Shown: piece by piece, positions 893 through 14,604 of the stretch
Numbering within the stretch: position 1 is the stretch's first letter
How the letters are laid out: each line of letters begins with the position of its first letter
DNA from: Sulfitobacter sp. S190
GTDB lineage: Bacteria; Pseudomonadota; Alphaproteobacteria; Rhodobacterales; Rhodobacteraceae
Reading direction: 5' to 3'
DNA: 64,000 bases
Assembly: GCF_025141935.1 (NCBI RefSeq)
Contig: NZ_CP081125.1
Coordinates: forward strand, 1-64,000
Position numbers and translations under genes: made by a program
The notes under the pieces: model-generated
What the model was told of the DNA's origin: nothing
Seen by the model: only the letters and a program-made list of their open reading frames with translations
The model's database searches: none

Positions 893-1178
893 GCAGTCCC
901 ACAATGGCCAGAACACCAAAGCAGACCTTCAGTCGACGCGAGGATACAAACGCGACTTTAAGGGCGTCATCGCACAAAGCTGTGGATGACCTACACCGGG
1001 TTTGGGGTGTGGTAGACTGCGTGTACTCAATATATAGTAAAGAAGATAGGCTGCTCCCGCTAACTAGGGCCGACGATGGCGCAAATCGTCATTTAACAGA
1101 GCTCACGTCGCTCAAAACTTGCGTAACCGGCTTCGCTGGGAATACCGCTGCCGTAGCAGCGAGATAGGAAGAATTAAA

Positions 1179-1661
1179 ATGGCTGAAGCATCGGAAAATA
1201 GCGAAAGTATGCGCATCGCGCATTTGACGCTGTTGCAGGGCGTCGTTACCCGAATGGGAGCAAATTCCTTCACGCTGAAGGCGCTCGCTGCGACTTTTGG
1301 GAGCGCTGGCATAGCGATCATGGCAACAATGCAAGACCCATCGCCTTACTATCCCGTCGCAGCAGTCATACCGATTGTCATCTTCTGGCTCATGGATGCG
1401 CAATACTTGCGGCTCGAGCGCGGCTACCGCCATATGTTTGACCAAGTCCGGCGCGGTGAGGAGATCGAGCCTTATAGCCTTGATGCCGAACCATTCATGG
1501 GAGAGATCGCGCCAGTGTTACGAATGGCAGTCACTTGGTCTGTTGCCTGGTTTTACCTTGCAATTTTTCTTTCGTTTGCTGCGGTAGCTTTACTAATTTT
1601 ATGCGGAGATTTGAATGGTTGGTGTCTGGGGAACAATTCCGAAACCGGTTGCGAAGCGTAG
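1179..1661 (+). CDS. Small integral membrane protein of a TIR gene cluster
   Basis: A 160-residue protein. The start is taken at ATG 1179, behind AGGAAGA; an internal ATG at 1209 (MRIAHL) is an alternative and matches where I remember related proteins starting. Hydrophobic segments lie at about residues 33-52 and 57-76, and a third near the C-terminus at about 122-148. The short charged stretch between the second and third contains YLRLERGYRHMFDQVR. Proteins of this look (MRIxHL, RMxxNSF, xxERxxRxxYDxVR) occur next to ThsB-like TIR genes, as here. The next gene overlaps it by 47 bases in another frame. A membrane effector role is inference only. Confidence 0.7.
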   Translation: MAEASENSESMRIAHLTLLQGVVTRMGANSFTLKALAATFGSAGIAIMATMQDPSPYYPVAAVIPIVIFWLMDAQYLRLERGYRHMFDQVRRGEEIEPYSLDAEPFMGEIAPVLRMAVTWSVAWFYLAIFLSFAAVALLILCGDLNGWCLGNNSETGCEA

Positions 1662-2253
1662 AGTTTTTTTCTCGTTTCACTACCAGAACGACGTTTGGAA
1701 AGTGAATCAAGTTCGTCAATCGTGGCGGCGCGACAAAGAGCAGTCGCGAGAGGCAGAGGGCTTCTATGATGCGAGCATCTGGGAGCGCTCAAAACTGACG
1801 GGCCCAGACGCCTTGAAGCGCCTCATTAGAGACGGGATGCAAAACACCTCTGTTACATGCGTTTTGGTCGGAGAGGAAACATACGCACGACGGTGGGTAC
1901 GCTACGAGTTGGCAAGGTCGGTGGTTAAGGGTAACGGTCTTTTGGGAGTGAGAATCCACTTAATGGGTGATCGCAATGGACTTGCTTCACCACAAGGACC
2001 GAACCCTCTCGACTACATGGGCGTCTACTTTACCAACGGCGCCGTCCGTCTCGCTGAACAAAGGAACGGGAAGTGGGGGAAATACTCCGACTACACCCAA
2101 TCCGTCGAGTTGCCACCGACGTGGCGTAAGCCCCACGACAACAACGTAATCAAACTCTCTAGCTATGCCGGGTTGTATTGCTATCGGTCTCAGAGAGGCA
2201 GTGAGAACTTTGCGTCATGGGTTCGACAAGCGGCCGCCGACGTGGGGAGGTAA
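1615..2253 (+). CDS. ThsB-like TIR domain protein (DUF1863/MTH538 family)
   Basis: A 212-residue protein with an N-terminal TIR-like fold. RRVFFSFHYQND forms the first strand and loop at residues 15-26, WERSKLTGPDALKRLIRDGM lies in the middle, and SVTCVLVGEETYARRWVRYEL carries the conserved strand and the Glu expected in the NAD-processing site (about residues 79-99). This is the family of Thoeris ThsB, which turns NAD into a cyclic ADP-ribose signal during phage infection. The C-terminal half (about 130-212) is not recognised. It overlaps the membrane protein upstream and is followed two bases after its TAA by another TIR gene, so the three are probably one transcript. Confidence 0.85.
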   Translation: MVGVWGTIPKPVAKRRVFFSFHYQNDVWKVNQVRQSWRRDKEQSREAEGFYDASIWERSKLTGPDALKRLIRDGMQNTSVTCVLVGEETYARRWVRYELARSVVKGNGLLGVRIHLMGDRNGLASPQGPNPLDYMGVYFTNGAVRLAEQRNGKWGKYSDYTQSVELPPTWRKPHDNNVIKLSSYAGLYCYRSQRGSENFASWVRQAAADVGR

Positions 2254-2255
2254 TT

Positions 2256-2768
2256 ATGATCGAGCAATCATCAATAAGAGCTTATGCAGGACGATCTGAA
2301 GTACGAAAATCAGAACGGATTGTCGAGGAGGCCCGGCAAGCTGGCAAGCAGACAGCGTTCCTATCCCACAGCCATAAAGATGCCGACCTTGCCAAAGGAC
2401 TTCAGGGCTACCTTCAGGCACAGGGTTGGAAAGTCTACATTGATTGGGAAGATACCTCGATGCCAGCCAAACCGAGCCGCGAAACTGCAGACAAGATTAA
2501 ACAACGAATAAAGAGGCTTGACTGGTTCCTATACCTAGCAACGGCAAACTCTGCATCTAGCCGGTGGTGCCCTTGGGAAATCGGTTACGCAGATGGTGTC
2601 AAAGGGATCAACCGGATTGTCGTCATACCGACGCGTGACAGCGCTGGCCGAAGTTATGGAAACGAGTATCTCGATCTGTACAAGCGTGTTTCCACGGCCG
2701 ATGTCGGGGGTTTAGGCATTTTTGGCCCGAACAATCGCGGTACGCTCTTCGAGAATGTAGCTCCCTAA
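2256..2768 (+). CDS. TIR domain protein
   Basis: A 170-residue protein starting at ATG 2256 behind GGGGAGG, which overlaps the previous gene's end. The TIR domain covers most of the chain: TAFLSHSHKDADLAKGLQGYL, then GWKVYIDWEDTSMP (the BB-loop region), then LDWFLYLATANSASSRWCPWEIGYADG. The last segment carries the Trp-x-x-Trp-Glu pattern where the catalytic glutamate of TIR NADases lies. There is no extra sensor or effector domain, so partners should be the two genes upstream. Known bacterial TIRs either hydrolyse NAD or make a cyclic ADP-ribose signal; which applies here cannot be read from sequence. Confidence 0.85.
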   Translation: MIEQSSIRAYAGRSEVRKSERIVEEARQAGKQTAFLSHSHKDADLAKGLQGYLQAQGWKVYIDWEDTSMPAKPSRETADKIKQRIKRLDWFLYLATANSASSRWCPWEIGYADGVKGINRIVVIPTRDSAGRSYGNEYLDLYKRVSTADVGGLGIFGPNNRGTLFENVAP

Positions 2769-3024
2769 CTTAGGGCCAACGTTTCTAGTCCTGACACAGA
2801 AAACAATTCTCAGATGCGAACATCCGATGCATGCAGGATGCGCTTTCCTTTGCCCAGCAGGTTTGACTGTTCGCTCCGAATAAGGTGCCGATTGTGGCTT
2901 ACTCCACCCGACCGCATCAGGTACACAACAAGAGTTCTCTATGCTTGAAGCCCTATTGGAGAAAGCCAGGATCAATGGCCCAGCAACACGGGAATCGACA
3001 CACGCCAAAGTAACGAACGGTGGG

Positions 3025-3702
3025 TTATGTGGTCGGTCGGGAGAACAAGTCTGGCTGAACGTCAGGCGGCAACGCGTAGGCCTGTTCGATTTGGCGGATG
3101 AAAACATTCTGTCCACCATAGCTCGGATGGCGAACCTGAACGCTATCAATGCCCAAATTGGCAACGGCCTTGTGTGCGTCCCCGCCAATAGCCAGTACCT
3201 GCTTTGGTTTCAGTACATCAATGACTGCGTGGAGAAAGGTTGCGCAGGTGTCGCGTTCAAGCGCCGTGTGACAGCGATTTGTCATTGGGTCATCTGGCTC
3301 ATGCGGGTGCAAAGGGAAGACGTTCCAAAGAAAAACTGGCTGGGTAAGCCGAGAGAGCATGCGCCAGATCGTGTTGGCGGTGCGCTCCCCCATATTGGGG
3401 CCTTTAGTGGCCTTTTGGACGGGCAGGCCATGGAATAGAGCACTATAGGCGTCGAGATGGGCTTCATCGGTCAATGCCAAACCGGTGCGACGGCCGCCTC
3501 GGTACCCGAGATCACGCGCGATCCAGACAGTGCTGACTTCCAGTTCAACTGCAGCAGCAAGGCTTAGTTCGAGATTGCGGCGCCGGCGAGCCGCCGCGTC
3601 GGGCTCATCGTGAAGTTCACAAAGATCAGAGTAGGGGTTGAAGACATTGTCGAGACGAACATCGGATAAAGCGTTCACAAAGCTACCAGCTGAATAGCTC
3701 AT
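3025..3702 (-). CDS. Uracil-DNA glycosylase superfamily protein
   Basis: A 225-residue protein. The start is ATG at 3702, overlapping the TGA of the upstream MazG-type gene as ATGA, so translation is probably coupled. Family signs in order: NVFNPYSD near residue 18, VSTVWIARDLGYRGGRRTGLALTDE (the UDG-superfamily GYRGGRRTG loop), FLWNVFPLHPHEP (active-site loop), VLAIGGDAHKAV, and VRHPSYGG near the C-terminus (the HPS motif that touches DNA). The family removes uracil or other altered bases. Its pairing with a nucleotide pyrophosphohydrolase suggests a joint role in dealing with abnormal nucleotides, for example in phage defence; that is inference. Confidence 0.8.
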   Translation of the reverse strand: MSYSAGSFVNALSDVRLDNVFNPYSDLCELHDEPDAAARRRRNLELSLAAAVELEVSTVWIARDLGYRGGRRTGLALTDEAHLDAYSALFHGLPVQKATKGPNMGERTANTIWRMLSRLTQPVFLWNVFPLHPHEPDDPMTNRCHTALERDTCATFLHAVIDVLKPKQVLAIGGDAHKAVANLGIDSVQVRHPSYGGQNVFIRQIEQAYALPPDVQPDLFSRPTT

Positions 3703-4856
3703 GGCTCGATGAACCAGATTTTGCGCTCTACCAAATCTATTCCGACTTGCCCGCCACGGTGCAGGCATACCGACCGGAAAACTTCATATCCTTGCAAGAT
3801 AGCCTCTTCCCAAAGCCATAATGGGCAATGTTCTGCCTCATAGCCTTGAACAAATTGCCTTACGGACTTTAGCAGTCCATAGTCGAGTGACGTTAGGCCG
3901 TCAAACAGCGCAAGGCGCTGCGCATGGTTGAAGATCCAGGTGGCAATACCTTCTTCTATCAAGATGGCGCGCGCGCCGTCCTCAACCTCATCCACTATCG
4001 GATCACTCTTGCGCTTCGCTCTTAGCAGTCCGCGCAGGGTCGGCGACCAGCCCAAGTGTGCTGCATGCGCCAAGTGAAAGACATCGTGAAAACGATAATG
4101 GTCATCTTCGGCACGGTTGTCCGTCAGCGGATCACCGATCGGCACATCGTTCCGCGTCATTCGTGAGACGGTTTTCCCATGATGTTCAAACTCCTCGAAA
4201 GTGACGATCAGATTACGAGGCAGCTGTTCTGTCTCGGGAAAGGCTTCATCGAATAGGGCGGGATAGACTCGTTCGCGGGGCCAGCGATCAGCGATCTTGA
4301 GCATATTAGCTCGCGCGGCGCTTTCCAAAGATAGTCCCGCTTCATGGGCCGCGTCTCGAAGCGACCGCAACACGGCGATCAGACGGCCCTTTAATGCAGA
4401 TCGGTTTTGATCGAAACGTCCTGCACGGTAATCGGTCATTAACAGCCCAACTTCGGAAGCCAGCCGCAGTGATGATTGCTCAAAAGCGGAGGAAGGACCT
4501 CCCGAAGGAGCATCCGGTGCAAGCTCAGCGGTCGCAAATGTGAGTTCTTCGGACCTGGCGGAATTCCAGTCCACCAAATTGCAATCGAGATTGATGGCTA
4601 AATCGGACAACGTGAGACTAGCGCGATCAGCAAGAGCGTTTAGATACCAAAGAGCGTCGCCCAGTTCTTCGAGGACGCTTTCCTCATAGCCGATATACGC
4701 CACGGGATCGCGTTGCTTTTTCTTTACCTCGCTCAGCAGGCTACCGGTCTCGCCGAAGAGACCGAGAAGAGGAAAGCTGAGGCTTGGTTCGGTGTCGCGT
4801 TTCAAATCGGTACGTCGAGCCGCCCGGCCGTATTCTGCGAATGTAAGGGCGTTCAT
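3699..4856 (-). CDS. MazG-type nucleotide pyrophosphohydrolase with C-terminal domain
   Basis: A 385-residue protein. The N-terminal MazG-like helical domain is clear: FPLLGLFGETGSLLSEVKKK followed by ESVLEELGDALWYLNALA, giving the ExxE and EExxD metal-binding acidic residues (about 30-80). A second, weaker copy (LRLASEVGLLMTDYRAG, residues about 128-190) has lost most acidic residues. The C-terminal third (YRFHDVFHLAHAAHLGWSPTLRGLL, then DEVEDGARAILIEEG) matches a domain I associate with MazG proteins in defence-like loci. MazG enzymes cut NTPs to NMP and pyrophosphate. Its start overlaps the preceding small ORF (ATGA) and its stop overlaps the UDG-like gene, so the three form one operon. 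Confidence 0.8.
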   Translation of the reverse strand: MNALTFAEYGRAARRTDLKRDTEPSLSFPLLGLFGETGSLLSEVKKKQRDPVAYIGYEESVLEELGDALWYLNALADRASLTLSDLAINLDCNLVDWNSARSEELTFATAELAPDAPSGGPSSAFEQSSLRLASEVGLLMTDYRAGRFDQNRSALKGRLIAVLRSLRDAAHEAGLSLESAARANMLKIADRWPRERVYPALFDEAFPETEQLPRNLIVTFEEFEHHGKTVSRMTRNDVPIGDPLTDNRAEDDHYRFHDVFHLAHAAHLGWSPTLRGLLRAKRKSDPIVDEVEDGARAILIEEGIATWIFNHAQRLALFDGLTSLDYGLLKSVRQFVQGYEAEHCPLWLWEEAILQGYEVFRSVCLHRGGQVGIDLVERKIWFIEP

Positions 4857-5053
4857 GGTTGCTGTTTCTTTCGATCGGCCACCACTTCGCTGGGCGCCGA
4901 CGTCCCGGCTACCTTCACTGCAGTGAGCACCAAAAGGCCCATCGATGCTCCGGTGTCGGCAGAGTTCGACGCCAATCCCCGCTTTGTGTCAGCAAGGATC
5001 TGTTGTGGTAGTGCGACTTCATTCGCAACAACGATATCGTAGCTTGGTTTCAT
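4853..5053 (-). CDS. Small hypothetical protein, first gene of the MazG/UDG operon
   Basis: A 66-residue ORF starting MKPSYDIVVANEVALPQQ and ending in a Lys/Gln-rich tail. Its stop overlaps the ATG of the MazG-type gene in an ATGA arrangement, the same spacing that links the next two genes; that is the main reason to regard it as real. No motif, signal peptide or membrane segment is visible. It could be a small regulator or partner of the enzyme, or simply a translated leader that couples translation. Function unknown. Confidence 0.45.
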   Translation of the reverse strand: MKPSYDIVVANEVALPQQILADTKRGLASNSADTGASMGLLVLTAVKVAGTSAPSEVVADRKKQQP

Positions 5054-5377
5054 GCAACTAAATAAGCATGGTTTGGTGACTGGCGTAAGCCTTGTATGTG
5101 CTGACCCTGTAAAGGGTTTGTCGTGTTTGAGCGTCGGGGCTTAGTCTGGATGCGCCTCCCGTCAATCAAGCCGATTGTTACCGATGTCGCCTCAAACCAG
5201 AATATCGACTGGCGGCTCTGCGTGAAAGCTGTGCGGCATTAGGCTATTTGAGCCTCGCGATAAGATTGGCCAAAATTGGCAACGAGCCCGTATGAAACAA
5301 AAACAGAACACATGATCTTGATGTAACAAGCGGGCATACCCATACTACTAGTGGATAGTGAGTCGCCAGAGGATGCC
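5054..5377. promoter_or_regulatory. Divergent intergenic region between two operons
   Basis: About 320 bases separate the leftward small-ORF/MazG/UDG operon from the rightward TIR-like/Nmad2 operon. No ORF with support is present. It must hold both promoters, but I could not fix convincing -35/-10 pairs or an operator by eye. Confidence 0.4.
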
Positions 5378-5866
5378 ATGTCTAAGCAGAAAAACGTTTT
5401 CATTAGCCATCATCATGGCGACGACAGTCATGTCGACAGTTTCCAAAGTATGCTTGGTCGGGGCGAATATCATGTCCGGAATTCGTCTGTGCGTATGAAA
5501 CCAGCCAACGAACGCCGCGTGAAGGAAGGTCGTGTCAGCGACAACACGATCAAGCGATTGCTGCGGATGAAGATGCGGTGGGCATCGACGGTGGTCGTCT
5601 TGATCGGTCCCAAAACGCATTCCCGCCCGTGGGTGAATTGGGAGATTGAACAAGCGCATAAGCTCGGCAAGCGGATCGTTGGTGTGTTCCTGCGTGGTGG
5701 GACTCAGGCTGATGTCCCGAAGGCGCTCGATGATTATGGCCAAGCGGTCGTCAACTGGAGTACCAAAGGCGTTGTTGATGCCATTGAGGGCAGGAATAAC
5801 CGGTTCGAGAGCCCTTCGGGTGAACTTCGAGAACCTGTCCATGCGATGGCGACGTCGCGCTGCTAA
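5378..5866 (+). CDS. ThsB-like TIR domain protein (DUF1863 family)
   Basis: A 162-residue protein starting at ATG 5378 behind an AGAGGA box; a longer reading from 5351 adds nine residues without a better ribosome site. The N-terminus KNVFISHHHGDDSHVDSFQSML is the first strand and loop of the TIR-like fold. RMKMRWASTVVVLIGPKTHSRPWVNWEIEQAHKLGKRIVGVFL gives the conserved VVVLIG strand and the W-x-x-WE helix with the putative catalytic Glu. The family includes Thoeris ThsB, the NAD-dependent signal maker. The stop codon TAA overlaps the ATG of the next gene (TAATG), so the Nmad2-like protein is its likely partner. Confidence 0.85.
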   Translation: MSKQKNVFISHHHGDDSHVDSFQSMLGRGEYHVRNSSVRMKPANERRVKEGRVSDNTIKRLLRMKMRWASTVVVLIGPKTHSRPWVNWEIEQAHKLGKRIVGVFLRGGTQADVPKALDDYGQAVVNWSTKGVVDAIEGRNNRFESPSGELREPVHAMATSRC

Positions 5867-6555
5867 TGGCAAAGGTCCGCGAAGAATCCGTTTTTGTTTA
5901 TGTCGTTGCGCGTGACTTCGGTTTCGCGCCAAACCCATTTTTTGGATACTGCACGTTGGCATGCTGTAAACCCAAAATCCGGTCGAAGGCTGTCAATGGG
6001 GATTGGGTTTTCGGTATTGCCGGGAGCAAACTCGAAAAGCCAGGGCACTGTGTTTTTGGGATGCGGGTCACGGACGGGCTCAGTTTTGACGAATATTGGA
6101 CGGATGAGCGATTTACGGCAAAGAAGCCGGTTCGGAATGGCAGCCGCGCGATGATGCTTGGCGATAACATCTACCATCGGGATTCAGAAGCGGACGCGTG
6201 GCAGCAAGAGGACTCCCACCACAGCCGCCCGGATGGGCTGCCTGACCAATCAAATGTGGAGCGGGATACGGGGACCAATCGAGTTCTCGTATCGGAAGAC
6301 TTTACTTATTTCGGGCGCTCTGCGCCAGAAGTGCCGCAGTCTGTGTTTGATGCAATGGGTTACGAGAACCGCATCGGTCATAGGAATTTCAAACGGACCG
6401 AGGCTCAGCCTCTGCTTGACTGGTTCAGTGTTGAATCACAGAAGTCCGACGGTCCGATTGTCGATGATCCGTTTCAGTTTCGCCAAAGCGCAGCTCGCTT
6501 TTCCAGTGGAACAAACAAGATCATTGACGAAGTGCTCGAACCGATGATGATATAG
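5866..6555 (+). CDS. Nmad2-like (nucleotide modification associated domain 2) protein
   Basis: A 229-residue protein translated from an ATG overlapping the preceding TAA. The opening VFVYVVARDFGFAPNPFFGYCTLACCKPKIR, followed by GDWVFGIAGS and the later DGLSFDEYW and RNGSRAMMLGDNIYH, matches what I remember of Nmad2, a family predicted from gene neighbourhoods to bind or process modified nucleotides. The C-terminal part (SEDFTYFGRSAPEVPQSV) continues the same domain. No enzyme activity is established to my knowledge. Coupling to a TIR-like gene suggests it recognises altered DNA or nucleotides, or is acted on through the TIR signal; inference. Confidence 0.7.
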   Translation: MAKVREESVFVYVVARDFGFAPNPFFGYCTLACCKPKIRSKAVNGDWVFGIAGSKLEKPGHCVFGMRVTDGLSFDEYWTDERFTAKKPVRNGSRAMMLGDNIYHRDSEADAWQQEDSHHSRPDGLPDQSNVERDTGTNRVLVSEDFTYFGRSAPEVPQSVFDAMGYENRIGHRNFKRTEAQPLLDWFSVESQKSDGPIVDDPFQFRQSAARFSSGTNKIIDEVLEPMMI

Positions 6556-6585
6556 CGGTTTGGTGGGCCGCTTGCCGCGCCTGCT

Positions 6586-6603
6586 TCGTGATTTTCATCA
6601 CGA
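6586..6603. terminator. Hairpin between convergent operons
   Basis: TCGTGAT-TTTC-ATCACGA gives a perfect 7-bp stem in the 105-base gap between the rightward Nmad2-like gene and the leftward DUF4062-like gene. There is no clean U-run on either side, so it is at best a weak bidirectional terminator. Confidence 0.35.
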
Positions 6604-6660
6604 TCGTTGGGTTCGTCGGAATTGGCCGCGTCCGCTTCACTCCGATGGGCTGAATACGAA

Positions 6661-8115
6661 TTACGCAGAATCTTCTCGTTTCAGTTTCAGCACGATTCTG
6701 TCGATCTGATCGTGCAACTGATTTTCTGATGCAATCTGATAAGCTTTGGTTGCTGAGAGTCTTGCCTGTGCCAAGTCGAAACAAGCCAACGATGCGACCA
6801 CATGTTTGCGAAGCGCCCTCACCCTGAAACCTGGGCTGGAGTTTTCAGGCGTCATCATTGTCAAACCTTCAGCGATCCGTTGTCTCGCCAATCTTGGTTT
6901 CAACAAGAACAGCTCTGCAAATCCAAGTTCGGTGAGCAAAAAGCCAATTTGCCCGGAGCTTTCGCTGTTCTTTACCGCCAGGTCATATGCTTCGCCAAAA
7001 TCTCTCGCCGAGGCTCGAAACCTACGCCGGCGATGATTGATACTTCCTCGAATTGGCAACAGCGATCCACGATCTTCTTGAGGTCGGGTCTCAAGACCTT
7101 CCTCAGTGTAAGCTGCTGACCGCGCCAACATCGCGGGTCCGATACGTCGTGGGCATCTTTTTGAAAGACTGTAGTAAACGCTGGCTAGACCATCATAGAG
7201 ATCACCTTGACCGGGAGAGGCGGGGTCGTAGAGGGGTGTTTCCAATGTCCCCTTTATTCGTGCAAGAGACCCGAGAGCAGATACATTGCCGAGCCAGATA
7301 TGCCCGTGCAGACCGCGCCAAGCGGCCGCCTTGGACCAGCTTCGCAACGCCCGATCCCAGAGAGCAAGAGGTCGGGGATCGCGTGTATCTGAGTAATGTG
7401 CCGCCATCAGTGTTCTTATGGCAATCCAAGTGCGGCTCAGAATACGGTTTGTTTCGCTGTGTTCCGCCGCCAGATCTAAATAGTGCGCCGCAACGTCCAA
7501 ATCAGTCTGTGCATTGGTTGGACCGCAGATGGTTCCGTGAAGAAACTGCGGTTCATGAAACAGGCTCGCATTCGACCAGTCCTGATGGCGTCCTTGGATC
7601 AGGGTGCCAGTCAAGCGTTCTGGATTCTTTGTTTCAGGTAGTCTTGCGCCCCCATCCAGATAGGTCGAAATGGTCTTTTCGGCCTCTTTCAGCGAGTCTA
7701 CTTTGACGGCCGAGACTTGAGGAGCCAACGAGCGCACGAGCGCATGAAGGTTAGACTGCTCTGCAGTGCTGCCCACATAGATGTATTTTATCGGTTTCCG
7801 CAGCAATGTGGCTTGAAACAGTTCAAGCTCTAAGAACGAGGACTCTGACGGCGTGCCTCTGAAATGAAGGTATGAACCGTATTCACCAGTGTCCAAAAGA
7901 AGGAATTCATGCGACGCTTCGATAGCATCAAGACAGGCATCGATGATTTCAAGCTGATCTGCGCCACTAGCAGGATCAAGGTCAGGTCTGATCCCTTCAG
8001 CAACCCATACCTGTCCACGTTGGTCTGTCTCGTAGCGCTCCCAAATCGTCATTCGAAGTGCACGCAGTTCGGGTGTGTTCCAACTAGACGCAAAGAAGGT
8101 TCTATGAGTGCTCAT
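6661..8115 (-). CDS. DUF4062-like N-terminal domain plus helical-repeat protein
   Basis: A 484-residue protein; start chosen at ATG 8115 (MSTHRTFFASSWNTPELRALR). Residues 1 to about 115 look like an alpha/beta effector-associated domain of DUF4062 type: FASSWNTPELRALR, a middle IDACLDAIEASHEFLLLDTGEYGSY, then SFLELELFQATLLRKPIKYIYVG. The rest (about 190-484) is helix-rich with repeated Ala/Leu pairs (AARTL-type helices, LTELGFAELFLLKPRLARQRIAEGL), consistent with TPR-like repeats. It is the last gene of the TIR/SLOG operon. A role as effector or adaptor is inferred from position only. Confidence 0.65.
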   Translation of the reverse strand: MSTHRTFFASSWNTPELRALRMTIWERYETDQRGQVWVAEGIRPDLDPASGADQLEIIDACLDAIEASHEFLLLDTGEYGSYLHFRGTPSESSFLELELFQATLLRKPIKYIYVGSTAEQSNLHALVRSLAPQVSAVKVDSLKEAEKTISTYLDGGARLPETKNPERLTGTLIQGRHQDWSNASLFHEPQFLHGTICGPTNAQTDLDVAAHYLDLAAEHSETNRILSRTWIAIRTLMAAHYSDTRDPRPLALWDRALRSWSKAAAWRGLHGHIWLGNVSALGSLARIKGTLETPLYDPASPGQGDLYDGLASVYYSLSKRCPRRIGPAMLARSAAYTEEGLETRPQEDRGSLLPIRGSINHRRRRFRASARDFGEAYDLAVKNSESSGQIGFLLTELGFAELFLLKPRLARQRIAEGLTMMTPENSSPGFRVRALRKHVVASLACFDLAQARLSATKAYQIASENQLHDQIDRIVLKLKREDSA

Positions 8116-8168
8116 GCCGACAAATCGTATGCAATTTCGCACAAACCGAATGCCAATCGCTCGACCAT

Positions 8169-8774
8169 CTACAAGAGTGAAGCGCGGCGCTTTGTTGCGA
8201 GATCGACGTCGAGCAACTTGTACAGCCAGTATGTGTAATCGACGGCCCCATTCAGTTCCGGCGGAAGGCCCTCTGTCTGTTCGAATAGCGTTCGGGCATA
8301 TCCACCAGGAGACGGGATCGGCAGGAGGATGGCGTTGGGGTTGAGCCTGGCAAAAAGGTTGTATTCGTCGCGAATGCCTTCCATGCCGCCGATGAAAACG
8401 GCTGCCTTATAGTTGTGCTCCGACAGCATAGACTTTCGCATGCGTTCCAAACTGGCATCCTGATTGCCAGGTGTTGCCGGTGTTTCGACGAAATTTCCAA
8501 ACTTCGTGTTTTCCTCAGGATAGCGATCCTTGAAGAAAGCACTTTGATAGAGAGTCACAACATCGGGGTAGGAGACGTCATACCGTCTCGCGGCTTCCCA
8601 TATCATCGGCGTGATGGCCGGTTGGCCATCCCACACCAGCAGGTATCTTCCGAGCACAACCTCGATCAGGGCTGATACGGCTTCTTTGATCAAGAATGGA
8701 TCAAAGTCCTCTGATCCGAGGCGACCTTCCTGAGGAACGCTGGCAGAAAGAAAAACTGCGGGTTCATCTGTCAT
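8169..8774 (-). CDS. Stand-alone SLOG-like nucleotide-sensor protein
   Basis: A 201-residue protein; the start ATG 8774 overlaps the TGA of the TIR gene (ATGA). It begins PAVFLSASVPQEGRLGSEDFDP and continues IKEAVSALIEVVLGRYLLVWDGQPAITPMIWEAARR, the Rossmann-like pattern with a glycine-rich loop and PAITPM that I associate with SLOG cluster 3 proteins. A later KAAVFIGGMEGIRDEYNLF and AILLPIPSPGGYARTLFE complete the fold. SLOG domains bind nucleotide ligands; in Thoeris the SLOG of ThsA binds the cyclic ADP-ribose made by the TIR protein. Here the sensor is a separate polypeptide coupled to a TIR gene. Confidence 0.72.
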   Translation of the reverse strand: MTDEPAVFLSASVPQEGRLGSEDFDPFLIKEAVSALIEVVLGRYLLVWDGQPAITPMIWEAARRYDVSYPDVVTLYQSAFFKDRYPEENTKFGNFVETPATPGNQDASLERMRKSMLSEHNYKAAVFIGGMEGIRDEYNLFARLNPNAILLPIPSPGGYARTLFEQTEGLPPELNGAVDYTYWLYKLLDVDLATKRRASLL

Positions 8775-9910
8775 GACAACACATCCTGCAGATTCTGAAA
8801 GGAAGACCCAGCTTTTATCCAATGAAAGCGATCAATGCGTTGGCCAAGCCACTCTAAATGCTCTTGCCAGCTCTCCAGAACACCGACGTGATCATACAAC
8901 AAGGCACATTCCTCTTTGCCTGCATCCAGTACAATCTTATTGATGACCTCAGATGTCGGCACCCCGACGATCGGGTAAACCTGCAACTTTTCACCGGTCG
9001 GGAATGACGCCATGACACGGCGCATCTGACCAGCGTCTCCGAGGTCACCATGCATTTGTTCAACCGCAGTTCTAAGTGAGCCAACAAGACATGATTGCCG
9101 GACGGCCACACTCTTACTGCGTAGACGTTCGAGGCTATCGGCCACCTCATCAAGCACAGTGTCGTTTAGCGTGCCGTTCGCCAAGAAATCTGATTTTTTG
9201 AGCTCGATCGTGTCTGTTACAGACAAGTTTTTGTCGAGCGTGACTCCTGGGAAACCAATACGCAAAATTGAAGCCCTCTTCAAATTTGCTTGTCCAAATT
9301 CCTCTGAGGTCCACCTGCTTTCAAAGTAGGATTTGGTGTCGAGCATGAGCATGACATCGCAGTCACTCATTTGATGCCAAAGAACGTCCTGAAACAACGC
9401 TCCCGGTCTGATTTCGTGGGTATCAAGAAAGACATCGAACTGACGTTGGCTCAACTCGTCAAACAGCTGAAGCGCAACCTCTCGCGACTCTATTCGACGA
9501 TAGCTTAAGAACACTCGGCGCCGACTTGGCACAAGTCCGAGGCACTCTGCGGTCGCGGAGGCTATCCTAGCTGACGCGTTTGGTTCAGTTGATGCCATAG
9601 CATTGAACGGAGATGCTTCTGGCGGCAACTCAACACTGCATCGGTCCAGTGAAGAGACGATAGGGATGATGGGGTCGTAGTCTGTGAGAGCTTCGGGCCG
9701 ATCATATGCCGGCGCTGGATCGTCACCGAAAAACAGACCTACAGAGGCACATTTGGGATTCTTGGTTTTGATTGTCCCACTTCGATCCAGAGCGACTTCG
9801 TCGCCGATCTTCAGATCAAATTCTGACAAATGATCCGTTAGCGCGGTCTCCAGTTCCTTAGAGGCGTTCTCTGTTCGACCGAACATGCAGATTTCATAGA
9901 ATGGCTTCAT
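8771..9910 (-). CDS. TIR domain protein with flanking alpha/beta regions
   Basis: A 379-residue protein in three parts. Residues 1 to about 125 form an uncharacterised alpha/beta region (SVGLFFGDDPAPAY, DYDPIIPIVSSLDR). The TIR domain runs from about 130: RRRVFLSYRRIESREVALQLF, QFDVFLDTHEIRPGALFQ, CDVMLMLDTKSYFESRWTSEEFGQA. SRWTSEEF supplies the likely catalytic glutamate. The C-terminal part (EKLQVYPIVGVPTSEVINKIV, then ECALLYDHVGVLESWQEHLEWL) is a second possible Rossmann-like region. It lies 25 bases downstream of a ThsB-like gene and overlaps the SLOG gene. An NAD hydrolase or cyclase role is expected from the family. Confidence 0.82.
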   Translation of the reverse strand: MKPFYEICMFGRTENASKELETALTDHLSEFDLKIGDEVALDRSGTIKTKNPKCASVGLFFGDDPAPAYDRPEALTDYDPIIPIVSSLDRCSVELPPEASPFNAMASTEPNASARIASATAECLGLVPSRRRVFLSYRRIESREVALQLFDELSQRQFDVFLDTHEIRPGALFQDVLWHQMSDCDVMLMLDTKSYFESRWTSEEFGQANLKRASILRIGFPGVTLDKNLSVTDTIELKKSDFLANGTLNDTVLDEVADSLERLRSKSVAVRQSCLVGSLRTAVEQMHGDLGDAGQMRRVMASFPTGEKLQVYPIVGVPTSEVINKIVLDAGKEECALLYDHVGVLESWQEHLEWLGQRIDRFHWIKAGSSFQNLQDVLS

Positions 9911-9935
9911 TTTGGCTTGCGATCTTTCGGTGCTG

Positions 9936-10307
9936 TTAAGCGAGGATCCGTCTTAGGTTATCCCAGTTCCATCGATAGAGCTGTCCCGCCCCTTTGACTG
10001 GAGTGTATTGTCCATCCTTGTAGCCGATGATCTGAACAATTTTCTTGCCGTGCTGACGCGCCATCGCGATTTCTTTGAGTACTCCGGGCGCACGATATGT
10101 ATCACGACCAACCATCACTAGAACCACGCGTGAGCGTGCTATCGCTCGCGAGGCCTTAGTCTCCCAGCTTCGTTCGGGTGCCGCCTCTTTCAGAGAACGA
10201 TCAATGACTTGAAACGGCGAGTCAGCGCGGCGCGCCTGCATAATGATGAAGTCCTTGAGGCGCCGGTCGTTGTCGAAATCAAAGCTTACAAAAATTGGTG
10301 TTTTCAT
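9936..10307 (-). CDS. ThsB-like TIR domain protein, first gene of TIR/SLOG operon
   Basis: A compact 123-residue protein, about one DUF1863 domain. The strand KTPIFVSFDFDNDRRLKDF opens the fold. DRSLKEAAPERSWETKASRAIARSRVVLVMVGRDTYRAPGVLKEIAMARQHGKKIVQIIGY gives the central helix, the VLVMVG strand and the KEI helix carrying the putative catalytic Glu. It heads the minus-strand operon TIR-like, TIR, SLOG, DUF4062-like. No strong ribosome binding site is visible before ATG 10307. As the smallest TIR-fold unit it is the most likely dedicated signal producer, by analogy with Thoeris ThsB. Confidence 0.82.
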   Translation of the reverse strand: MKTPIFVSFDFDNDRRLKDFIIMQARRADSPFQVIDRSLKEAAPERSWETKASRAIARSRVVLVMVGRDTYRAPGVLKEIAMARQHGKKIVQIIGYKDGQYTPVKGAGQLYRWNWDNLRRILA

Positions 10308-10502
10308 CGCTGGATACTCGAAACTTGAGGGTGTGCTTATGGTATCTCGGATCCCGAATTGAGGCTAGGGTACTTGGCTCAGATGGCTTGTGCGATCCCT
10401 GCATCTGAACTGACGGCGCACAATCTCCAACCAATTCAACTTCCGCTTTCAGGATGCTGCAATGCGGCATCGGTCATTATGACGGATGTGCGCTATGGGC
10501 CG

Positions 10503-11411
10503 TCACTGCCGAAGTTCACTCAGCACATCGACGCGCTCAAGCGCCCGCCTAAGTGCATGGTTCGAAACCCGCACATAGATCTCAGTGGTCCTGAGATTGG
10601 CATGCCCGAGAAGCGCTTGGATCATGCGGATGTCGATGCCCTCTTCGAACAGCAACGTCGCGGCCGAGTGCCGGAACCTGTGCGGGGTCAGATGCGGTGT
10701 AATGTCCAATCGATGCGACAGCACCCGGAGCCGTTTCCGGAAGGTTTGTGACCGGAGGCGACGACCAACCGCGTTCAGGAAGAGCGGCGATTGCAGAGAG
10801 CCGTGCCTTGCGCGATCTGCGCAGTACCGTCGAAACGCCTCCTGCAGCTCCGTGTTCGGCACAAAGACGATCCGCTCCCTGTTGCCTTTGCCGCGCACAA
10901 TCATTTGGGAGGCGTCTGCAGAAATATCACGAATCTTCAGGGTGGTGAGTTCGCTGATCCGCAATCCGGTTACAATCAGCAGCTTAATTATCAGGATCGT
11001 GATTTCCTGATCTGCGGGCCGTGCATTGGTCGGCCCGGTTTCCGACTGCAAGACCGCTTTTAGTGTCTCCCTGTCGATCGGGCGGGGCAGGCGTCGTGGG
11101 ATCCGGACCGAGATGCGAACGTCGGCAAAGGGCGAGGGCAGGGCGCTGTTCCGATCTGCGCGCCAGGCAAAGTACGACTTGAGGGTGACCAGACGCCGCT
11201 CGATGGTCGCTGGCTTGGCGTCCAACTCATCGCGCAGATGGCGGTGGTAGGCGAGGATGTCGTCTTTCGACAACGGATCGGTGAGATGACGATCCTTGGT
11301 GAAGCGCGCGAAGGTGCGCAGATCCTGGGCATAGGCCCGCAGTGTGTGATGTCCGACGCCGCGTTCATCGCGGCAGGCAGTGACGAAGGCGGTGTGATCG
11401 AGATGGGGCAT
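10503..11411 (-). CDS. Tyrosine recombinase/integrase (XerC/D type)
   Basis: A 302-residue site-specific recombinase. The N-terminal SAM-like core-binding domain covers residues 5-95 (HHTLRAYAQDLRTFARF). The catalytic domain carries all expected residues: R151 in VTGLRISEL, K175 in RGKGNRER, H244 and R247 in TPHRFRHSA, H270 in LLGHANLRTTEIY and the nucleophile Y279. There is no arm-binding domain, so it resembles simple Xer-like integrases of genomic islands and transposon-like units. A perfect dyad 78 bases upstream of its start is a candidate target. It sits between the TIR island and the selD locus and may mark a junction. Confidence 0.92.
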   Translation of the reverse strand: MPHLDHTAFVTACRDERGVGHHTLRAYAQDLRTFARFTKDRHLTDPLSKDDILAYHRHLRDELDAKPATIERRLVTLKSYFAWRADRNSALPSPFADVRISVRIPRRLPRPIDRETLKAVLQSETGPTNARPADQEITILIIKLLIVTGLRISELTTLKIRDISADASQMIVRGKGNRERIVFVPNTELQEAFRRYCADRARHGSLQSPLFLNAVGRRLRSQTFRKRLRVLSHRLDITPHLTPHRFRHSAATLLFEEGIDIRMIQALLGHANLRTTEIYVRVSNHALRRALERVDVLSELRQ

Positions 11412-11550: not shown

Positions 11551-14500
11551 CTACGGTTTCACCACTTTGCCACCGCCGTCACCCAAGATGAAGTCGATCT
11601 CCTCATTAATACCGTCAACGGTGCGCAACCGTTCGATGACGTCCTGCGAGCCAGAGATATAATAGCCGAAGAGAGGGTCCACCTCCAAAACTCCTTCGCG
11701 GCCAAGCTTCTCTTTGGTGACGTGTTGTTCCTCTTCGTCCTTGATCAGCTGAATGATCTCATTCCACTCTTCCTCAGTCATGCGCTCGTGTGTGGTTCTC
11801 ACCAACTCAACAACAACCTTGGAATGGCGCGTCGCGAGTTCCACAAACCGATTAAAACCGCGGCTCTTACTGCGGACAAGAAGAGGCCGCAAATAGCTGG
11901 CATAGGCCCTGATGTGCTTGTTCATTGCGCAGAGCGTTCGGCCAGCCTCGTAAAGCATGTCTAGGTAGGTACGCTCTGAGCACCCGTAGAGCAGGACATC
12001 CCTTTGAATGTCGTCGAGGAGCTGCTCAGCGACGGACAGCTCACCTCTCTGCCTGAAGAGGCGCGCCAGCAGCACCCGATACCCCAAAGCCTCATGTTGA
12101 AATCCGTCGGCGCTTGCTCTGAAGACGGCCGCCATAGTCTCCGACATGGCTTGCGAACTGGTTTTTTCGATATTGGCCAAGGCGCGGATCCGGTTATGGA
12201 TCAAGTCGGGATCCCACCGTCTGGGGTCTCGCTCCGACTCAAGGATCTCCGAGCTTAGCTCGATCGCCTCAGCAAATTTGCCCTCAAGGCACATAATACG
12301 AAGGTTCCGTGTATGAACCCTCTTTTGCAACGCGCTCACCCCCTCCATCGTTGGTTTATTGAGGTGCTTTTGAACAGTCCGCTCGACCGACCGGATTGTC
12401 TTTTTAGCGATCTTGAGATCATTGAGTTCCGTCAGCACTAGTGTCCTGTTGAGCTTTTCCTCAAGCGCAGGTTTTGAGTCCTTCGCATGTTCCTTTTCCA
12501 ACGACTTGAAAAGCTTGTTAGCTCGTTCTAACTCACCGAGATCAAGCAAGGCAAAAGCGCACTCGCGAAGATAGGAGACCCGATACTTCGGATTGAGATT
12601 GGGGTGTGGTTTGCCAAGTATTCGGTTTTCGCCCATCAGCTGCAGAAGCTCGGCCGCGTATTCGAACGCGCCGTGGCGCTTTGCGAGGGACCGGCCTTGT
12701 TGCGGCAAGTCAGCCACATTGCCAAAGGCTTTGTTTCCGTTGATCTCTCGCTGAAAAATCCTCGAGTAGCAGAAGTTAATCACCTCGGACGGGTCACATC
12801 CCAACAAGGAGGGATCGGGTGGTTCCGGGAAAACGTCGTCGGATCCGCGTACAGTCAGGTCTGACACCCCGCTCACGCCATCGACGCAACACACGAGGTG
12901 CCGGATACACTCGCCAAGCAGGAAAATCCGCGATCTACCCCAATGCGGCAAATAGGGGAATTCCTGCGCGAGCAGCTCTTTGCTGTCCTGATTTTTCCAG
13001 AGATTTCTGGCCACGCGCCAATGCGCGACAGCGCGCTCGAATGGATCGACCCGGCGCCACTCATCCTGCACGATGGATCGTATTCCTAGGCTAAGAGTAA
13101 AAATCTTCTTTGCGTTTTCGTCGTCTTGCGGATGCGTGGGGTCCTGCACTTGGTCTGTTATGGGGCAAAGCCGATCTTTGACCTTGTTTTCGAAGGCCTC
13201 CCTTGTAAGTTCCGATACCTTATAGCCATCGGTGCCCTTTGGAGCGAAGAACTGACGCAAACTGTCCAATGCGGGCTCTGTAAGCCAATGCTTAGCTGTG
13301 CTGCAAAAGCGCAGCGCCCGCAACTCGGGGCTTTGCTTCCCGGCCGCCGCACGAATGATGTATGCGACCAGATCATCATGGAAGAGCTCGATGCTTTTTG
13401 GAAGCGGTGCATCTCTACCGCAGAGTGCGTCGAATCCCATGGTTGGGTCGAAATACGCGTAGTTTCCAAAGTTTGAGGCGAAGTAGGCGCGCAGCCGGAT
13501 CATGCCCGGCCAGACGCTCCGCTCATCACTACGTTTTACCGCCTCGTAGTGCCATCTGCCCCGTTTCAGACGAGAACCGCCCTCCTCCGCACGGGTTTCA
13601 TCTCGGTGCGCTTTGTAGTGTTCAAAAAGCTCCCGATAGAACTCAAAACCCGTTTGGGACTTGAGCACTTTGTCCAATTGATAAGATCTGTTGTAGGGCG
13701 CAACTAGAGCAGTGACTGCCGAAGACCGGCCGACCGTGATCACCGAGGCGCAGGCCTCTTTAGAGTGCATGTCTACCGCGCACTTTAAAACCTGATAGAT
13801 CAGCAGTTCTTTCTCGTAAGATTCCTTTTGAAAGGGGATGAAGCAGACGTCAGACACTACCAAAAGGATGCGCTCTCTCCGGATCGCGTCTACCAGCGCT
13901 TTGGGCGTGCTGGCTCTGTCCCCCCTGACGCCCAGCTCAGCGGCAAGCCGTTTCAGTTGGGCGTCGAATGGCATTCCCAAGTCGGACGGTCGGATTGTGC
14001 ATATTTTGCTGAACGTTTTCAGAATTTCGTCGTGCTCTCGTAATAGGTGAGCGATGTAGCTTGCACCCGACCACGGCTCGGCGTCCCAGTGGACCACGCC
14101 GACATCCGACCGTATCGTCAGCCGCGCGAGCCTTCGCCACGCTCCGCGCTCTCCGCCGGAAAGTACCGGTTCGTGCTCGCTGGCCGAGCCTAGGCTGTGC
14201 ATTTCGTAGTTTTGCTTGTGGCTAGATTTGAAGAGGCTGTTTCGCTTGTTTAGCAACAGTCCTGGGTCTGTTCCCGCCTCATCCCTAAGCATCTTGCTGT
14301 CAATAAGCGTGTCGATTCCGCTTGTGGAGTTGCATGCAAAGAGGTCGGGAAGATCGAAGCTGTTCTGGATGCGCTCCCGTGTCTTGGGGTCTTCAAGAGC
14401 GCTTTGGACCCTTCCAGGTTTCGCCTTGCCGTTCAATATCTTTGAGGCGTAGCTACGGGAAATATAATGTGGCTCGTCCTTGTCCTTGTCGGAAAGCGAA

Positions 14501-14604
14501 AACCCCATATCGCCAAAAAGATCGTCGTGTTGATAGGTGCGAACCTGTTTTTGGAAACGTTTGTGGTTACGCCAAACGTAGGAAAGTATCTCTAGATGGT
14601 CCAT
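11551..14604 (-). CDS. Large HTH / STAND-like NTPase / helical-repeat protein
   Basis: A 1,017-residue protein not recognised as a named family. Residues about 1-90 resemble a helix-turn-helix segment (YISRSYASKILNGKAKP looks like an XRE recognition helix). Residues about 150-330 look like a degenerate P-loop NTPase: GVVHWDAEPWSGASYIAHLLREH where a Walker A would be, lacking the usual GKS/T, and RILLVVSDVCFIPF as a Walker-B-like strand. The C-terminal half, from about 640, is helix-rich with repeated Leu/Ala/Arg helices (ECAFALLDLGELERANKLFKSL), typical of TPRs. It is transcribed away from the selD operon and shares its repeat-rich promoter region. A sensor or regulator role is plausible but unproven. 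Confidence 0.6.
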   Translation of the reverse strand: MDHLEILSYVWRNHKRFQKQVRTYQHDDLFGDMGFSLSDKDKDEPHYISRSYASKILNGKAKPGRVQSALEDPKTRERIQNSFDLPDLFACNSTSGIDTLIDSKMLRDEAGTDPGLLLNKRNSLFKSSHKQNYEMHSLGSASEHEPVLSGGERGAWRRLARLTIRSDVGVVHWDAEPWSGASYIAHLLREHDEILKTFSKICTIRPSDLGMPFDAQLKRLAAELGVRGDRASTPKALVDAIRRERILLVVSDVCFIPFQKESYEKELLIYQVLKCAVDMHSKEACASVITVGRSSAVTALVAPYNRSYQLDKVLKSQTGFEFYRELFEHYKAHRDETRAEEGGSRLKRGRWHYEAVKRSDERSVWPGMIRLRAYFASNFGNYAYFDPTMGFDALCGRDAPLPKSIELFHDDLVAYIIRAAAGKQSPELRALRFCSTAKHWLTEPALDSLRQFFAPKGTDGYKVSELTREAFENKVKDRLCPITDQVQDPTHPQDDENAKKIFTLSLGIRSIVQDEWRRVDPFERAVAHWRVARNLWKNQDSKELLAQEFPYLPHWGRSRIFLLGECIRHLVCCVDGVSGVSDLTVRGSDDVFPEPPDPSLLGCDPSEVINFCYSRIFQREINGNKAFGNVADLPQQGRSLAKRHGAFEYAAELLQLMGENRILGKPHPNLNPKYRVSYLRECAFALLDLGELERANKLFKSLEKEHAKDSKPALEEKLNRTLVLTELNDLKIAKKTIRSVERTVQKHLNKPTMEGVSALQKRVHTRNLRIMCLEGKFAEAIELSSEILESERDPRRWDPDLIHNRIRALANIEKTSSQAMSETMAAVFRASADGFQHEALGYRVLLARLFRQRGELSVAEQLLDDIQRDVLLYGCSERTYLDMLYEAGRTLCAMNKHIRAYASYLRPLLVRSKSRGFNRFVELATRHSKVVVELVRTTHERMTEEEWNEIIQLIKDEEEQHVTKEKLGREGVLEVDPLFGYYISGSQDVIERLRTVDGINEEIDFILGDGGGKVVKP

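Follow-up and report, generated by a model that had tools for sequence, protein, structure and literature searches.

A predicted Thoeris type III locus with a large TIR gene set and an accessory DUF4062-TPR gene in Sulfitobacter sp. S190

Results

A four-gene minus-strand unit encoding ThcB4 and ThcA

Using profile searches, structure prediction and the comparison of related loci, we characterize here a predicted Thoeris type III locus of Sulfitobacter sp. S190 that lies within a 64,000-nucleotide stretch of contig NZ_CP081125.1 (positions 1 to 64,000; assembly GCF_025141935.1), the whole of which we call the window. Four minus-strand genes make up the unit that an earlier note, made from the sequence alone, had described, and all of their open reading frames were found again. 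The first, TIRa (9936–10307, 123 residues), encodes a small stand-alone ThsB-type TIR protein (PF08937, 36.7 bits against a cut-off of 21.2) and is followed after about 25 nucleotides by the gene for ThcB4 (8771–9910, 379 residues), in which a TIR domain at about residues 130–230 (TIR_2, 51.1 bits against 28) is flanked by extra N- and C-terminal alpha/beta regions. The third, ThcA (8169–8774), encodes a stand-alone SLOG cluster3 protein of about 201 residues (PF18180, 201 bits against 25), whose start, corrected to the ATG at 8774, gives an ATGA overlap with the ThcB4 stop codon. Up to this point, the coupling included, the earlier description holds. About 53 nucleotides beyond ThcA lies the accessory fourth gene, DUF4062-TPR (6661–8115), which encodes a DUF4062 (TIR-like) domain followed by a TPR helical domain and most likely starts at the ATG at 8115, not at the GTG at 8142, as judged from Yoonia DNA, the window DNA and the homologue P0124. 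Spacing and common direction suggest that the four genes form one transcript; the three promoter-like sites that a scan of 6500–10900 returned do not exceed chance expectation, and each of them is on the plus strand.

In NCBIfam release 20.0, ThcA passes NF058525, "Thoeris type III ThcA", with 215.3 bits against a cut-off of 110, and ThcB4 passes NF058526 with 388.4 bits against 220. Judged by these profile matches, the system of the window is Thoeris type III, an already named kind, and the split sensor that had been put forward as a new arrangement consists of two proteins to which NCBIfam has already given names. The same cut-offs are passed by the ThcA proteins of Yoonia and of a Sulfitobacter plasmid, and by the ThcB4 proteins of that plasmid and of three further loci (L009, L012 and L046). 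When the other TIR proteins of the window were compared with the NCBIfam Thoeris models, the sole match was a partial one of ThcB4 to 2217–2768 (27.5 bits against 220). PADLOC 2023 assigns ThcB4 to the ThsB variants (225 bits); neither ThcA nor the DUF4062 protein had a match there at E ≤ 0.1. The numbering of ThcB4 suggests that type III has further parts, ThcB1–ThcB3.

Pfam domain scans of two sets of locus proteins (n = 10 and n = 6) returned no SIR2 and no macro domain, in agreement with the earlier note, and no caspase-like protease or peptidase family. Three other assignments were accordingly rejected: type I for the missing SIR2 and the stand-alone SLOG protein, type II, whose transmembrane-macro effector has no counterpart among the proteins scanned, and type IV for the missing protease. 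PDB sequence searches with the four operon proteins found no near relative, the best match being the bacterial TIR 8wcf to the small TIR (E = 0.0056). Our literature searches found no open paper that gives the composition or mechanism of Thoeris type III; the accessible part of one Pseudomonas phage paper mentions the name in passing (PMC12390725).

ThcB4, ThcA and small TIRs as the type III core

A genome scan with the ThcA alignment matched 253 relatives, of which the best 80 were kept, and a viral scan gave 3; with the window they make up 84 loci (L005–L087 and the window), many of them near-identical, those of sphingomonads above all. Families were counted by running hidden Markov models (HMMs) on all six frames, since at five loci, that of the window among them, a mechanical caller had mistaken TIR genes for antisense reading frames (cluster 17). 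ThcB4 is found at 84 of 84 loci with a lowest score of 348 bits, and at 79 of them lies directly upstream of ThcA on the same strand, while DUF4062-TPR is found at two, the window and Yoonia, where it is truncated; the co-occurrence of the four genes, proposed as a check in the earlier note, thus has a mixed outcome, being constant for the ThcB4–ThcA pair and rare for the fourth gene. TIR cluster 2 is present at 76 loci and TIR cluster 3 at 36. The other accessory families are Nmad2 (nucleotide-modification associated domain 2; 30 loci), MazG and uracil-DNA-glycosylase (UDG; 26 each), a SLOG-patatin protein (11) and a small membrane protein (8).

Extra TIRs are present at every one of the 58 loci that have 5 kb or more of flank on each side: 12 loci have one, 26 two, 15 three and 5 four, the window belonging to the last group. 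None of the six accessory families occurs at 30 of these 58. De-duplication at 90% ThcA identity leaves 55 loci, 36 of them with enough flank, and here the corresponding numbers of extra TIRs are 12, 13, 8 and 3, with 18 of the 36 loci core-only. Because ThcB4 is constant, extra TIRs are always present and half of the loci lack accessories, this comparison indicates that the type III core is ThcB4–ThcA with at least one small TIR. The effector should therefore be among the core proteins, which argues against the DUF4062 gene as the core effector proposed at the outset. ThcA itself is rare in the family, being present in 3 of 295 genomes, the window included.

A catalytic-type Glu, Glu204 in ThcB4, is kept in 43 of 43 ThcB4 sequences, 50 of 50 in TIR cluster 2 and 18 of 18 in TIR cluster 3. 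These sets are de-duplicated and length-filtered, comprising 43 of 72 sequences (81 in the cluster), 50 of 88 (97) and 18 of 31 (37), respectively. In fold comparisons, RPPT-TIR and SARM1 matched the TIR domain of ThcB4 best. TIRa falls in cluster 15, with relatives in L005, L021, L050 and L051, and the Glu of "KE(I/V)AMA" is present by eye in 5 of 5 sequences.

In the window, the ThcA motif WGGxPxITP reads WDG, with Asp49 where relatives have Gly. The GG is found at 82 of the 84 loci and in 118 of the 120 listed proteins, the best 120 of 1739 homologues; L087, P0054 and P0081 did not match the motif pattern and were scored neither way. The site may matter for ligand binding, in which case the ThcA of the window might be weak. 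The window and Yoonia ThcA proteins are near-identical.

At L046:5150–6769, we also observed a fusion of SLOG cluster2 with patatin, the protein whose homologues occur at 11 of the 84 loci. The L046 copy, in which alone domains were scanned, scores 210 bits on the phospholipase model of cyclic oligonucleotide-based anti-phage signalling (CBASS; cut-off 200), making it a candidate lipase effector of type III Thoeris.

Family, fold and linkage of the DUF4062-TPR protein

The reading of the fourth protein as DUF4062-like with helical repeats stands in part. Its own DUF4062 score (PF13271) lies below the gathering score (20.2 against 24.7 bits), whereas in the family alignment the same model reaches E ≤ 0.01 for 19 of 23 rows, the lowest E-value being 6.8e-6, and the helical part finds TPR matches. 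This alignment comprises 22 of 33 relatives and the window protein, one of the 22 (P0121) being the window's own protein again. An "ELE" Glu pair (E96 and E98, counted from the ATG) is invariant in 23 of 23 rows. Aligned by hhalign to four bona fide DUF4062 proteins (4 of 8 genomes' over-cut-off matches), the family is collinear, with ELE on TEKE, at an E-value of 0.0043 but a probability of 8%; the controls ThcB4, small TIR and ThcA gave E-values of 0.15–0.4. One of the two Glu residues would, we infer, be the equivalent of KpSwz E97. The predicted structure (mean predicted local distance difference test score, pLDDT, 82.9) has alternating strands and helices over about residues 13–163 and helices afterwards, the helical part matching TPR proteins such as LGN and Rap/NprR. 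Both PDB fold comparisons listed TPR-type matches only, which filled the lists, and the N-terminal domain was left without a match of its own.

The family comprises at least 33 clusters, the same set being obtained by single-sequence and by profile search (8000 candidates scored in each). Among 390 genomes of the order, it occurs in two, the window's and G309; the G309 sequence equals the one matched in Yoonia (L005). A second draw of 394 genomes of the family returned the window and one weak match, in G224. This match and another in G593 (21–22 bits, TPR region only) were rejected as TPR cross-matches. A scan of viral contigs found no DUF4062-TPR in 33 candidate stretches.

Linkage of DUF4062-TPR to ThcA was counted about 11 times, 8 of these by inference. 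On the Sulfitobacter plasmid NZ_CP136691, which lies outside the 84 loci, the order is ThcB4, ThcA, an IS5-family transposase gene, DUF4062-TPR and two convergent TIR genes; the latter are about 60% identical to TIRd and TIRc of the window, and the DUF4062-TPR profile match contains a stop. This order agrees with that of the window once TIRa and the TIRb–Nmad2/MazG–UDG module described below are set aside. In Yoonia sp. F2084L, the gene directly follows ThcA and is cut to about its first 92 residues, and in one metagenome-assembled genome, ThcA and DUF4062-TPR occupy consecutive locus tags (AAF756_15575/15580). Eight further DUF4062-TPR clusters of the 33, one of them from the AAF756 genome, share the size of their longest contig with a listed ThcA cluster and provide the 8 inferred linkages, likewise outside the 84 loci; as the comparison was made by eye against the best 120 of 1739 ThcA homologues, 8 of 33 is likely an undercount. 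Taken together, these contexts indicate that DUF4062-TPR is a recurrent accessory of a small subset of loci, damaged in two of the three that are readable as DNA. On the Sulfitobacter plasmid, a HET-domain protein adjoins ThcB4 (L088:7711–9114); a neighbour of similar size at L102:10292–11752 (G218) is HET-like by eye only.

The wider locus

Contrary to the earlier note, the four genes do not form a natural unit by themselves. Three further TIR genes and a small membrane protein gene lie within the next 5.5 kb, and the natural locus extends from about 1119 to 10307, with five TIR genes, the small membrane protein and an embedded TIR–Nmad2/MazG–UDG module. Each of the eleven genes listed for the window has an open frame; ten of them could be assigned to a family, and the copy of DUF4062-TPR here is complete. 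Across the 3.97-Mb genome as a whole, PF08937 is found in four places, all inside C6:1666–10292.

On the plus strand, TIRc (1615–2253; PF08937, 87 bits) encodes a ThsB-type TIR that is 60% identical to a TIR in L088, with the cluster Glu in 50 of 50 de-duplicated sequences, and TIRd (2217–2768; PF13676, 53 bits) encodes a small TIR 61% identical to another in L088, with the Glu in 18 of 18. In the Sulfitobacter plasmid, the homologue of TIRd adjoins DUF4062-TPR and that of TIRc adjoins that of TIRd. The small membrane protein gene (1119–1661, plus strand; cluster 16) overlaps the start of TIRc. Clustering placed it at 5 of the 84 loci and HMMs at 8; it is beside a TIR in 8 of 8, in 7 of which that neighbour is a cluster-2 TIR immediately following it, and a "DAQYL..ER" motif is conserved in 5 of 5 aligned sequences. 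A Pfam scan gave no match; with its few transmembrane helices, judged by eye, the protein resembles SLATT-type effectors.

The embedded module (3025–6555) combines two plus-strand and two minus-strand genes. TIRb (5351–5866; likely start at the ATG at 5378) encodes a ThsB-type TIR (PF08937, 74.7 bits; PADLOC ThsB PDLC00418, 171 bits) and is coupled to Nmad2 (5866–6555; PF18753, 237 bits), while on the minus strand a gene for a MazG-like protein with a MazG_C domain (3699–4856; PF18722, 259 bits) is overlapped by one for a UDG-superfamily protein (3025–3768; PF03167, 36 bits against a cut-off of 24.3). Nmad2 occurs at 30 of 84 ThcA loci as against 13 of 385 genomes of the class Alphaproteobacteria, the window included. 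Of the 12 others, six carry a TIRb-like gene and MazG_C in the stretch read, five of them with UDG as well, a seventh has MazG alone, and only one has ThcA. We assign TIRb to this module because a TIRb-like gene adjoins Nmad2 in genomes that lack ThcA, and the whole (also in L104–L110 and L119–L123) looks like a separate anti-phage-type module. In L119 and L036, it is joined by a gene with a 5-hmdU DNA kinase helical domain, hinting at a link to modified nucleotides. A literature search on the module found no relevant paper.

Replicon and genomic setting

The first base of the window is also the first of its contig, which is 96,152 bases long. The region 14800–39000 has matches in 186 plasmid records, of which 161 are predicted to be conjugative (best rows 78–80% identity over at most 47% of the query), and the contig is therefore probably a conjugative plasmid; a search for a circular overlap found none. 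G+C content is 52–55% at 1–10.5 kb as against 59–61% at 19.5–30 kb, as for an acquired island, and a tyrosine recombinase gene (10503–11411; PF00589) lies upstream of the operon. Upstream of the recombinase, 11551–14604 encodes a 1017-residue protein with weak TPR matches, possibly a STAND-like defence protein as judged by eye.

Discussion

The type III locus of the window, probably carried by a plasmid, is unusual for the number of its TIR genes and has an extra gene whose product probably destroys nicotinamide adenine dinucleotide (NAD+). The comparison brings out a constant ThcB4–ThcA pair, one to four variable TIRs and optional genes, SLOG-patatin and DUF4062-TPR among them, whose products are candidate effectors. 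With this picture the division of labour in type III becomes directly testable, and a newly described NADase family is placed inside a TIR/SLOG signalling operon. In the literature searched, we found neither a Thoeris system with a DUF4062 arm nor a two-piece receptor-effector of SLOG and TIR. A preprint of May 2026, in its accessible part, describes DUF4062 proteins as TIR-like NADases of anti-phage defence whose activity depends on a Glu and on an auxiliary domain, among them Swarozyc, a stand-alone enzyme switched on by a phage portal via that domain (PMC13174449); in the main text as accessible, "Thoeris" appears once, as an analogy.

From the anatomy of the locus, the conserved residues and the precedents, we hypothesize that the small TIRs detect phage, each possibly tuned to another trigger, and turn NAD+ into an ADP-ribose-type signal. 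ThcA would bind this signal via its SLOG fold and switch on its partner ThcB4, whose TIR domain would destroy NAD+ and so abort the infection, so that the pair would do in two pieces what an effector with SLOG or CARF fused to TIR does in one. DUF4062-TPR could be an optional second TIR-like NADase, its TPR domain sensing a trigger or docking to the complex in the style of Swarozyc, such that the subset of loci that carries it would have two routes to drain NAD+. The SLOG domain of ThsA is the signal reader in type I according to the part of PMC9503650 available, and in staphylococcal Thoeris the TIR proteins ThsB1 and ThsB2 complex with a capsid protein, ThsB1 recruiting and activating ThsB2, as set out in passages of PMC12578639; Thoeris signals and effectors are treated in the accessible text of PMC12847820. 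We hold the scheme as a whole tentatively, at slightly less than an even chance. That one signal or trigger drives both the SLOG-gated TIR (ThcA with ThcB4) and the DUF4062-TPR enzyme, two NAD+-destroying folds, in the Rhodobacterales and metagenome subset seems to us rather unlikely.

The main rival takes DUF4062-TPR for an independent gene of the Swarozyc type that has no more than the operon in common with ThcA; its TPR domain would directly sense a phage protein and its NADase would act without the ThcA signal. Swarozyc itself acts stand-alone and is portal-activated through its auxiliary domain (PMC13174449, accessible part), most ThcA loci lack the gene, and two relatives have a damaged copy together with a ThcA that scores above the NCBI cut-off. 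Yet both carriers among the 390 genomes of the order have it beside ThcA, and in so small a family 8 of 33 clusters appear to sit on a ThcA contig, when a gene living independently would be expected in other places too (contexts were readable for a minority of the clusters). This reading is a real possibility, though on the doubtful side.

Two other readings appear improbable, and to a similar degree. In one, the role of NADase effector falls to the small TIRs and ThcB4–ThcA is the signal-making or sensing unit, which would suit the Glu kept in all TIR groups examined and the additional regions at either end of ThcB4, conceivably sensing domains; however, a number varying from one to four would fit sensors better, and in type I the SLOG of ThsA is the signal reader (PMC9503650, as above). 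In the other, the system is in decay, and the substitution in ThcA and its composite order of genes are what is left of it. The Asp at a near-invariant Gly, the Yoonia truncation and the stop in the Sulfitobacter copy beside its transposase gene agree with decay, but the intact set of window genes, DUF4062-TPR among them, does not. Finally, we think it very unlikely that the SLOG protein gates the DUF4062 protein as effector of the whole system, the earlier note's reading, which the gene's co-directional position immediately after thcA and the lack of an effector fused to SLOG would favour, since half of the well-flanked loci have ThcA, ThcB4 and TIRs without any scanned accessory family and the constant partner of ThcA is ThcB4, not DUF4062.

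Compared with Thoeris type I, in which a ThsB TIR works with a SIR2-SLOG ThsA, the window likewise has ThsB-type TIRs and a SLOG protein, the latter unfused to an effector. Types II and IV use a TIR-made ADP-ribose signal (PMC12847820, accessible text), which they would share with the window, whereas Pfam finds neither a macro domain nor a caspase-like protease in the locus proteins scanned. Like Swarozyc, the DUF4062-TPR protein has a DUF4062 domain with a conserved Glu, an auxiliary C-terminal domain and defence-gene neighbours; unlike it, the window protein scores weakly as DUF4062, has TPR as its auxiliary domain and is set in a TIR/SLOG operon. The closest agreement is with Thoeris type III, in the two signature proteins above curated cut-offs, their ATGA coupling and the several further TIR genes, to which the window adds DUF4062-TPR as a fourth co-directional gene and the embedded TIR–Nmad2/MazG–UDG module.

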